A stretch of 64,000 nt of DNA from assembly GCF_007990525.1 (NCBI RefSeq), contig NZ_AP019823.1, forward strand, positions 1,054,001-1,118,000, written 5' to 3'. This DNA comes from Leptotrichia hofstadii (GTDB taxonomy: Bacteria; Fusobacteriota; Fusobacteriia; Fusobacteriales; Leptotrichiaceae). Both the position numbers and the translations under genes were made by a program. Positions 6,134-19,376 of this stretch are shown here, piece after piece. Positions within the stretch are counted from its first letter, which is position 1, and each line of letters opens with the position of its first letter. Under the pieces are notes generated by a model. The model was not told the DNA's origin. It saw only the letters and a list, made by a program, of their open reading frames with translations, and did no database searches.

Positions 6134-6333
6134 TTTAAATAACTTAATTTGTAAAAAGGAAGATTTTAAAAATAGTCAGAAAAGTCAAAAAGACAATTAA
6201 AAATGGAAGAATATTTTAAATAAAATGGGATAGAGTATGATAAAAATTTTGTTTATGGTATTAATAAAAAAGAAAGAAATTTTGAATTTGTAACTGAAAT
6301 TTTTTGTATTTTGCGAAGGGAGAATATTGATTT

Positions 6334-16639: not shown

Positions 16640-16650
16640 AAATATTAAAT

Positions 16651-16745
16651 AAAAAATTGCTGTATGTATTGTTCTAAATCATCCAAAGAAAATGGGGAAT
16701 CGAACCCCTTTAGAAGTAGGAACAATTTATTGACAGCAATTTTTT
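16651..16745 (-). ncRNA. Y-RNA/tRNA-like RNA unit A (last unit of the locus)
   Basis: Read on the minus strand. Outer stem: 13 perfect pairs between 16733-16745 and 16651-16663. After an asymmetric loop (ACAU on the 3' side) comes an inner stem of 7 perfect pairs, 16720-16726 with 16668-16674. The apical part opens with the shared CTACTTCTA (complement of 16711-16719) and contains a tRNA T-arm mimic, GGGG-TTCGATT-CCCC (complement of 16694-16708). The outer stem ends in six U residues, as in an intrinsic terminator. Structure is read from the sequence; the RNA identity is inference. Confidence 0.65.
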
Positions 16746-16840
16746 TTCCGTATGTGTTATTCAAATGGAGCCGATAATTTTATGGGCTATCGGCAGAACC
16801 CTTCCAAATAGCTAGAAGTAGGAATAACTTTTTGACGGAA
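16746..16840 (-). ncRNA. Y-RNA/tRNA-like RNA unit B (middle unit)
   Basis: Same architecture as its neighbours with different stem sequences. The outer stem pairs 16746-16751 with 16835-16840 (6 bp). The loop again has ACAU on the 3' side. The inner stem pairs 16756-16762 with 16822-16828 (7 bp, GTTATTC/GAATAAC on plus). The conserved CTACTTCTA is the complement of 16813-16821. The apical part differs: a 7-bp hairpin GCCGATA/TATCGGC (16769-16794) replaces the canonical T-arm, although GGGTTC is retained just before it. Compensatory stem changes relative to units A and C support a folded RNA. Confidence 0.6.
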
Positions 16841-16936
16841 TGTTATTGTATGTAATGTTCATAGAGCGGGAGTCGAACCCACAAGGGAAAATCCCATTAC
16901 CATAATAGAAGTAGGAACAACCTTTTGACAATAATT
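16841..16936 (-). ncRNA. Y-RNA/tRNA-like RNA unit C (first unit after the promoter)
   Basis: Outer stem: 16843-16849 pairs with 16928-16934 (7 bp). The inner stem pairs 16856-16860 with 16915-16919 (5 bp). The same ACAU loop strand and CTACTTCTA (complement of 16906-16914) are present. The apical part shows two arms on the minus strand: a small GGGA-TTT-TCCC hairpin (a possible D-arm mimic), then a perfect T-arm, GTGGG-TTCGACT-CCCGC, 5 pairs and a 7-base loop as in tRNA. No acceptor stem or anticodon arm exists, so it is not a tRNA. Confidence 0.65.
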
Positions 16937-16945
16937 CTTACAATG

Positions 16946-16974
16946 ATAATAACATAAATTTTAATAAATTTCAA
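16946..16974 (-). promoter_or_regulatory. Promoter of the tandem small-RNA locus
   Basis: On the minus strand TTGAAA (16974-16969) is followed after exactly 17 bases by TATTAT (16951-16946). The predicted start, about seven bases on, is at 16937-16939, immediately before the outer stem of unit C. It lies in the 45-base gap after the stop of the TerD-domain gene, so the RNA locus can be transcribed independently of it. Confidence 0.65.
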
Positions 16975-16981
16975 ATAAAAG

Positions 16982-19312
16982 TTAAAAATAATTTGCTAAA
17001 ATATCATTTAAAGGCAATGGATTATCATTATCAAGTTTATCGAAAATAATATCTGCATTTTCTTTTTCAAAAACCTGTGTTCCTCTGGCTATTGCATTTA
17101 ATTGTAAAAGTTCATACATTGTAACATATTTTTTATTCACAAAATATTTAAGCACATCTTCCAAATGGGCAATATCCGTTTGATTCAAATAATTATTGGA
17201 AGAAAAGTTTTCAGAAACAGGCATATTCATATCAATCCAGATATATTCATTTTTTTCAAAATCAATCAAAATTGTATTAGTTGTTCTTGTATTTGACAAA
17301 ATTTGAAAACCTTGTGTAACTGCTGATGAATAAAGATTTTTGTCACTCATAGCCTCTTTTTTTGTCAGTTCAAGCACTCCAGCATACACACTTCCAATTT
17401 CTTCAAAAGAAAATCCATTATATGAACGGATTTCCATAAGAACATAACGAGTGTCAGAATTTTTCAATTTTTCCAAATTATAAACATCAATAAATTCCAA
17501 AGCTCCATTTGGTGCATTTGTAATATCCCCACTAAATACAAAATTAGGTTCAACTTGATTATAATAAGCGACTGTTTTCAAAAATTTGAAATTTTCATCA
17601 AAACAAATAACCGATAAATCAATATCAACTCGTATATCATTTTTCTTTTCTTTAATATTTTTCCAGCCAACAAAAAATCTTAAAACTTCCGCATCATTAT
17701 TAAATGAAAATCTTGATCCTCTTGTCATCGGTTTAAGGGAAATATTACTATCTTTTTCACTTGTTGTAATTGCAATATTTTTATAGCTTTCATCAATGAA
17801 AATATTTTCTAGCGGATTTTTTAATTTTAAATTTTCCAAAATTCCATTTTTTACAGTTTCAAGTAAAAATTTTAGTAAACTTTCATTCAAAAATACAGTT
17901 TCATCTAATTTTCTCCAAGTTCCTTTACTATTTACAATTCTTGGAATAATTTCGGTTTCTTGCTCAATTTCATTATTTTCAATTTCTTTGTTTTCTAAAT
18001 TTTCATCCTTATTAATGGTACTTCTAAAAATATTTCTAATCTTAAAAAAGTTTTTACTTTTTTCTTCGCTTATTTCCTGTTTTTTAACAATATTTTTCAA
18101 ATTTTCTTTTTCCAATAAATTCAAAATTCTATCATAAAGTTGAAAAAGAATACGATTATTTACATCTTTCATACAATTTTTTAATCCGTTTGTAATAATT
18201 TCATATTGAGTTTCGCTGGCATTATTTAAAAGGGATAAAACATTTCTGACATAATCTCCAGAGTATTTTGAAAATTTGGTAATAAAAATTTTCAATTCAT
18301 CATTGTTCAGATTTTGAATATTAACGCTCATTTTATTAAAATACCCTTTTTCTGTTTCAAAAAAAAACTCTCCAAACAGCATATCAATTGCTTTTTTAAC
18401 ATTTTTATATTTTTTCAAATTAATTTTTTTCGCATAAAACATAAAAAACTTATGCCAAACTTTTCTGTATCTTTTAATATCTGGTAAAATATTTGAAATA
18501 CTATCCAATTTTTCCATAATTAAATTTAATTCGGTTCGATTAAAATATTTAAAATGTATATGTTTTGTATTCAAAATATTATTTTCATTAAGTTTATCAT
18601 TTGAAATTTTCGTAATTAATCGTAAAATATCAGTTGCAGTGTTAAAATTTCCAGCCAAAAAATTTCTATGTTTCAAAGTATGACTGGCAAGCGTTGTCAA
18701 AGTTTCTTTCATTTGAATATTATCACAATATTGTTCAAGTTCTTCATCAGAAAATCCGTCAGATAGAAAACAAACATCATCTAAATATTGCTGGGAAAGT
18801 GTAATATTACTTGAAAGTAAGTTCACAAAAAGTGTTTCAATTTCTTGATCTCCTACAAACTTTAAATGAGAAAGTGTAAATAATTCAGCTGGTTCTGATC
18901 CTAAATCTTCTTTTTCAGTATTTTCATATGGTAAATATCCAAACCAGTAGTGTAAAATCTGATTTAAATAAATATCGGCTTTTTCCATATTTATCACTTC
19001 GTTTGGAAAATTTTTATAAAAAATAGTATAATTTTTATCAGATTTAAACTCTTTTATATTTTCCAATACTTCTTCACATAATAAAATTGCATATTCTCTA
19101 TCCAATCTAGAGATTATATAAGCCAAGTCTTTTTCAAAAGTATAACCAAATCCTTGAAATTTTTTTACGATAGTTGCAAATTCACTAACAGACAATGTAT
19201 TTCTATTTTCATCAAAGAAATTCCTGTTATTATCAATTTTTTTTAGTTCATCTTTTTGAATATAAATACCATTTAAATGTCTTAAAGTTATATTATTTAT
19301 AGATTTTATCAT
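16982..19312 (-). CDS. Helical-repeat protein with C-terminal TerD-like domain
   Basis: A 776-residue cytosolic protein. Residues 1-420 are all-helical, HEAT-like by eye, and contain a conserved-looking FPNEVINMEKADIYLNQILH segment (about 103-122). Residues 420-460 are a charged linker. The last 300 residues carry a TerD-like beta domain: VGWKN, then RVDIDLSVICFDENFK with the DxDxS calcium-type motif, YYNQ, and the SGDITNAPNG loop. TerD proteins belong to tellurite/stress-response systems. A canonical promoter and AGAGGAG site precede the ATG. The three RNA units follow directly downstream on the same strand. It lacks an obvious TROVE or vWA domain. Function not established. Confidence 0.75.
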   Translation of the reverse strand: MIKSINNITLRHLNGIYIQKDELKKIDNNRNFFDENRNTLSVSEFATIVKKFQGFGYTFEKDLAYIISRLDREYAILLCEEVLENIKEFKSDKNYTIFYKNFPNEVINMEKADIYLNQILHYWFGYLPYENTEKEDLGSEPAELFTLSHLKFVGDQEIETLFVNLLSSNITLSQQYLDDVCFLSDGFSDEELEQYCDNIQMKETLTTLASHTLKHRNFLAGNFNTATDILRLITKISNDKLNENNILNTKHIHFKYFNRTELNLIMEKLDSISNILPDIKRYRKVWHKFFMFYAKKINLKKYKNVKKAIDMLFGEFFFETEKGYFNKMSVNIQNLNNDELKIFITKFSKYSGDYVRNVLSLLNNASETQYEIITNGLKNCMKDVNNRILFQLYDRILNLLEKENLKNIVKKQEISEEKSKNFFKIRNIFRSTINKDENLENKEIENNEIEQETEIIPRIVNSKGTWRKLDETVFLNESLLKFLLETVKNGILENLKLKNPLENIFIDESYKNIAITTSEKDSNISLKPMTRGSRFSFNNDAEVLRFFVGWKNIKEKKNDIRVDIDLSVICFDENFKFLKTVAYYNQVEPNFVFSGDITNAPNGALEFIDVYNLEKLKNSDTRYVLMEIRSYNGFSFEEIGSVYAGVLELTKKEAMSDKNLYSSAVTQGFQILSNTRTTNTILIDFEKNEYIWIDMNMPVSENFSSNNYLNQTDIAHLEDVLKYFVNKKYVTMYELLQLNAIARGTQVFEKENADIIFDKLDNDNPLPLNDILANYF

Positions 19313-19347
19313 AAAAATCGTCTCCTCTAGTTAGATTTTTTTTGTTT

Positions 19348-19376
19348 ATTATATCTTATTATCTGTGTTTATGCAA
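19348..19376 (-). promoter_or_regulatory. Promoter of the TerD-domain gene
   Basis: Minus strand: TTGCAT (19376-19371), a 17-base spacer, then TATAAT (19353-19348). It lies about 35 bases before the start codon, with an AGAGGAG ribosome site between. Confidence 0.7.

Follow-up and report, generated by a model that had tools for sequence, protein, structure and literature searches.

The window analysed here, a 64,000-nucleotide stretch of the 2.6 Mb genome of Leptotrichia hofstadii (contig NZ_AP019823.1, 1054001-1118000), a bacterium of the oral habitat, carries on its minus strand an open frame of 776 codons (16982..19312), followed on the same strand by three small RNA units. The sequence-only reading had placed the protein gene 45 bases upstream of the RNAs; the order and strand are confirmed, with the first unit lying 47 nt past the stop codon. 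A structure model of the whole protein (pLDDT 77) shows an N-terminal helical-repeat (TROVE-like) half, a disordered linker at residues ~406-471, and a C-terminal TerD-fold domain at residues 539-716. The long helical-repeat half that had been proposed is thus seen in the model, and the proposed TerD half is upheld by its predicted structure (Z 15.4 over 155 residues to 3ibz; Z 13.3 to 2kxt), though a Pfam scan of the protein matched neither TerD nor TROVE nor RING. A DXDLS motif that may include Ca2+-binding residues is visible in this domain, with residues 563-567 conserved at the level of sequence, and the protein scores 195 bits, against a cut-off of 600, with the NCBIfam model NF041916 (MXAN_6230/SCO0854 family RING-domain protein). 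The claim that the gene has its own promoter finds no clear backing: the 30 promoter-like sites in the region are not clearly above the 23.4 expected by chance.

The three RNA units, U1 (16843..16934), U2 (16748..16838), and U3 (16657..16739), all on the minus strand, are built on a common scaffold: an outer stem, an asymmetric internal loop in which CAAWAR faces ACAU, an inner stem of 7 bp (weakened in U1), a conserved strand of the CUUCYUUCUA type, and a variable top. The strand CCUACUUCUA and the inner stems (GUUAUUC/GAAUAAC in U2, AUUGUUC/GAACAAU in U3) are common to all three. The outer stems differ in sequence and keep their complementarity, reading UUAUUGU/ACAAUAA in U1, CCGU/ACGG in U2, and UUGCUGU/ACAGCAA in U3, where an A/U run lengthens the stem and a U tract comes after it. 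The units were recognised as repeats, and at U3 lies a perfect 13-nt inverted repeat (16651-16663/16733-16745). The fold of U3 beats 200 of 200 shuffled sequences (z -3.42) and that of U2 all but 3 of 200 (z -2.15). For U1, which was folded without the last three bases of its 3' end, the result is unexceptional against its shuffles. For the units, an Rfam scan gave only chance matches in the window, the YrlA model (RF02553) being unmatched. A CRISPR-like array was considered and rejected, because the repeated elements fold into hairpins whose stems covary. A candidate promoter of the RNA array (16946..16974, minus strand; TTGAAA-17-TATTAT, with TG before the -10, that is, an extended -10) lies between the stop codon and U1, 12 nt upstream of the latter. 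In the Leptotrichia genomes G009, G011, and G013 a unit is preceded by a counterpart of this element, TTGATA-17-TAAAAT, likewise with TG before the -10.

The earlier description of the RNAs as tRNA-like stands in part. U1 (module GUGGGUUCGACUCCCGC) and U3 (module AAGGGGUUCGAUUCCCC) bear a T-arm-like hairpin, GGGUUCGANUCCC, which U2 lacks, so the term fits two of the three units, and within the window it is the T-arm alone that is mimicked. The exact core CCTACTTCTA has 11 copies in the genome, only 3 of them within such units, and the 22-nt core of the U1 module is unique to U1. An origin of this module by copying from a tRNA of the same genome was rejected, with no second match found at up to 3 mismatches.

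The protein is found in 4 of 13 Leptotrichia genomes and is absent from every other genus of our Fusobacteriota sample. In all four protein-positive genomes a unit lies just downstream of the gene on the same strand, and the exact longer core AARTTRTTCCTACTTCT occurs in 4/4 of these vs 0/9 of the protein-negative genomes, which contain at best one-mismatch core matches; the sequences of three of the latter (G005, G007, G015) were read and hold no unit. A second unit is present at another site in three of the four protein-positive genomes (G009, G011, G013), and the dispersed units of G009 and G013 have stems near-identical to those of U3. Since these second units sit at distant sites, the Leptotrichia RNAs work in trans. 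The site between an ABC-transporter gene and ilvC, which carries the full system in the window, holds a solitary U3-like unit without the protein in G013 (L130) and G009 (L131), both of which have the protein and one unit elsewhere.

Distant homologs of the protein, at 22-27% identity, occur in many phyla, on phages and plasmids and in genomes, and many free-living bacteria have the system on the chromosome; a viral scan using the window protein alone returned no relatives. The unit beside these homologs follows a consensus, outer stem - GGCUAU - inner stem - CUUCCUUCUA - variable top - inner stem' - CUUUCC - outer stem', whose motif density is 1.92/kb near the gene on its strand vs 0.16-0.27/kb on the other strand or further off. 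Many of the short tops in Paenibacillus and Lachnospiraceae share UUGGNGAA or UGGGUGAA (e.g. L074 3840-3903, L040 3681-3745). Covariation across 28 units is pronounced: 97.3% of cells are paired vs 61.8% in shuffled alignments, 156 two-sided changes are seen vs 47, 12 of 16 pairs are changed on both sides, and the covariation score of 0.929 compares with 0.203 for shuffled and 0.12-0.19 for slid controls. These counts are for the units taken together; a direct alignment of the six Leptotrichia units was poor, their tops being variable and units of the relatives having been taken on the wrong strand or with wrong bounds.

A covariance model of the common unit form, R1, gave 182 matches, every one of them on the strand of the gene, with units at 87 of 89 homolog loci; because these loci were picked by protein similarity and are rich in Paenibacillus, the counts do not represent independent events. 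The two loci without a match are L118 and L085, whose contig starts inside the gene. R1 also detects units at phage and plasmid homologs, all outside its training set except L024, which was used in building the model. Homologs that routinely lack the RNA were one of two outcomes named beforehand as speaking against a partnership, and the 87 of 89 loci, with one of the exceptions cut by its contig end, show the opposite. Across 16 whole genomes, 27 of 28 R1 matches fall at the protein locus. One Paenibacillus genome has a dispersed unit (G100:C26:174355-174422) outside the protein locus. On the window itself R1 misses U1-U3 and returns only chance-level matches elsewhere (33270, 39380), the divergent Leptotrichia units being below its reach; their membership in the family is therefore founded on the architecture, the CUUCYUUCUA-type strand, and the position beside the gene. 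The family is absent from Rfam 15, and a literature search by family names found no paper on the protein-RNA system.

The strongest evidence for an obligate pair comes from the reverse search, because the protein was not used in it: the RNA core alone was run against 2.9 million viral contigs. Among the 117 stretches recovered, 67 have the core in a structured unit (shuffle control 5.4%), a number that includes stretches that are not all independent, since several contigs of the viral set are near-duplicates of one another. The protein is encoded in 52 of the 67, in 52 of 52 cases on the strand of the unit, and TROVE is encoded in none of the 67. Six of the remaining 15 belong to records of 200-463 kb with the protein elsewhere in the record, which brings the protein to 58 of the 67 stretches or their records, and the rest are fragments whose records, none longer than 61 kb, do not encode it. 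One 4.4 kb stretch of a 210 kb viral contig (L186) clusters five units on one strand, at least two with T-arm modules; the protein gene of this record lies outside the stretch. The second outcome named beforehand, RNAs routinely beside unrelated genes, is likewise contradicted, as the whole-genome matches stay at the protein with a single exception and the viral ones lead to it. The association of gene and RNA is thus near-obligate in both directions. It might still reflect co-inherited passengers of mobile elements with no physical partnership, as a patchy distribution and the presence on plasmids and phages would allow; we give this next to no credence, since the association is kept at 22-27% protein identity while the order of gene and unit changes, is kept at separate sites of one genome, and is accompanied by no RNA-only contigs among the large viral records.

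The placement of the units bears on whether they are RNAs in their own right. In Paenibacillus, Proteobacteria, and others they lie upstream of the gene, 50-250 nt before the start codon and on the same strand, as would be expected if they were cis-acting leaders or attenuators controlling that gene. This explanation has little chance of being correct, however, given that the units lie downstream in Leptotrichia, Niallia, Lachnospiraceae, Dawidia, Vibrio, and phage Weasels2, that distant second copies exist in three Leptotrichia genomes and the Paenibacillus genome, that arrays of 2-5 units with differing modules occur, that the six large virus records hold units outside the stretch with the gene, and that a candidate promoter precedes the Leptotrichia array.

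The apical modules are the most variable part of these RNAs, and some imitate tRNA more completely than those of the window do. A strict T-arm motif is present in 13 of 249 distinct modules, 12 times the background per kb, and in 9 of these 13, all from relatives, the T-arm is followed by a D-arm-like stretch, which makes the module a circularly permuted tRNA whose acceptor is closed. Bacterial Y RNAs of the YrlA type carry a circularly permuted tRNA-mimic module, and the permuted modules of the relatives have this same architecture. In five records the Rfam YrlA model (RF02553) matches on or next to units, at 31-44 bits vs a cut-off of 69. A second, sub-cut-off YrlA-like match (30.8 bits) lies at L076 9460-9529, some 3.2 kb past the unit that is found at 6139, and matches to the permuted tmRNA model (RF04321) occur near phage copies (L019 726-920, L029 1541-1843), where they overlap ordinary tmRNA matches. 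Short hairpins make up the majority of the modules, so tRNA mimicry is one of several uses to which this exchangeable position is put. The RNAs could instead be decoys that soak up enzymes which cut or modify tRNA (anticodon nucleases, pseudouridine synthase), while the protein carries and stabilises them, in which case the system would serve defence or counter-defence and not RNA quality control. The permuted tRNA modules, the very variable modules on a constant scaffold, and the distribution over phages and plasmids, where copies often sit among tRNA arrays, are in keeping with such decoys, and Ter systems have been linked to phage resistance (PMC7824862). We consider the decoy explanation unlikely: 236 of the 249 modules have no strict T-arm, most being short hairpins, the system is chromosomal in many free-living bacteria, and no defence genes were noted among the neighbours, which were not scanned by defence families.

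The genes around the homologs are mostly unrelated, with scattered exceptions that concern RNA repair. In Pelomonas (L099) the order is rtcB-rtcA-unit-gene, rtcR adjoins the gene on a Variovorax plasmid, an RNA ligase lies near the Vibrio gene, and RtcB is encoded 3 kb from the gene of phage Weasels2. An RNA-repair operon was rejected as the general context, as it is only occasional: a scan of 76 neighbours found one RtcB and one RtcA. These instances suggest an RNA-repair role for the system, and a TROVE protein with a tRNA-like partner has been described as an RNA-repair platform (PMC7824862). On a Pseudomonas chlororaphis contig a CNF1-type toxin-like gene (L110:666-3749; 112 bits, cut-off 950) adjoins the homolog and is probably unrelated.

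For the fold of the N-terminal half, we used the model of a homolog (L034, pLDDT 87.8) and re-aligned the Foldseek candidates. The two top matches are a TROVE protein (9kop, Z 8.6) and Ro60 of Thermus phage phiLo (9l5y, Z 8.5), over 252 residues each and with rmsd 4.8-5.0; these alignments are far longer than most of the others, and their Z-scores are below ~13, the safe level for helical repeats. Ro60 in complex with RNA (1yvp) follows with Z 6.6 over 275 residues. The fold comparison, in which TROVE/Ro60 ranks first and second below that safe level, makes the analogy to Ro60 drawn earlier a likely one. We regard a relation of the modelled fold to TROVE as likely and unproven, because Foldseek itself gave no E-value below 0.001 and profile-profile comparison (hhalign) against six canonical TROVE proteins gave no signal (probability 0.7%). 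The TROVE profile PF05731 matches none of 58 members at E<=0.1, no vWA domain was found, the TerD fold occupying the C-terminus, and in the same genomes the canonical TROVE genes are without an RNA unit of this kind. Because the searches for a TROVE profile match and for a vWA domain both came out negative, we do not file the protein as a TROVE member.

We interpret the locus as encoding a ribonucleoprotein of two parts that operates in the manner of the Ro60/Y-RNA particle and is separate from TROVE, with TerD in place of vWA, and we put the probability of this reading at about 0.7. The earlier suggestion of a convergent or remotely related Ro-like ribonucleoprotein is supported to that extent, both of the outcomes that would have spoken against it having turned out otherwise. 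In this particle, the TROVE-like helical half would bind the constant RNA scaffold, namely the outer stem, the asymmetric internal loop, the inner stem, and the CUUCYUUCUA strand, and the small RNAs would act in trans as separate partners of the protein. The variable top, sometimes a tRNA mimic, would point outward and control access to the ring or the choice of the partner to be recruited, possibly misfolded or damaged RNA, tRNA-handling enzymes, or nucleases. The TerD domain, in the place of vWA, may sense a ligand, either Ca2+ or a stress signal resembling a nucleotide, and so link the particle to stress, and the particle as a whole may serve in RNA surveillance or repair. A broader proposal, to which we would give even odds, is that of a widespread class of ribonucleoprotein separate from Ro60, in which a TROVE-like ring joined to TerD binds modular RNAs of a family new to Rfam 15. 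The class would exist in bacteria as well as in large phages, and the exchange of tops (among short hairpins, T-arms, and permuted tRNAs) would adjust the choice of RNA or tRNA enzyme to be captured during stress or a phage attack. If true, TerD proteins, for which a clear biochemical role has long been lacking, would gain an RNA partner, and the Ro60/Y-RNA design would occur in bacteria and phages in two or more forms that differ in sequence, each using tRNA mimicry. A defined RNA family and a covariance model are now offered for testing the role of such particles.

With the TerD stress proteins the protein shares the C-terminal fold, and it differs from them in its large fused helical half, in giving no Pfam TerD match, and in having no ter operon in the neighbourhood read. 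The MXAN_6230/SCO0854 family (NF041916; Pfam Prok-RING_4) is matched by 58 of 58 aligned homologs (best E 7.9e-154), and plasmid members so named also carry units (Kitasatospora, L026); in contrast, the Leptotrichia protein has no RING, and the family description names no RNA partner. Prok-RING_4 itself is matched by 1 of 58 homologs, and its Pfam text speaks of ROT/TROVE-like repeats joined to TerD, with a possible part in RNA processing. Unlike Ro60 and TROVE proteins, the protein described here has no TROVE sequence match and carries TerD where they carry vWA, and its RNAs differ from Y RNAs in their conserved strand (CUUCYUUCUA) and loop. What it has in common with Ro60/Y RNA, including Rsr-YrlA, is a helical-repeat protein that is probably of the ring type, as judged from the top fold matches, with an RNA gene adjoining the protein gene; an RNA built from an outer stem, an internal loop, an inner stem, and an exchangeable top, with permuted-tRNA modules in the relatives that match the YrlA model at scores under its cut-off; and, as for Rsr/YrlA, an occasional rtcBA/rtcR context.
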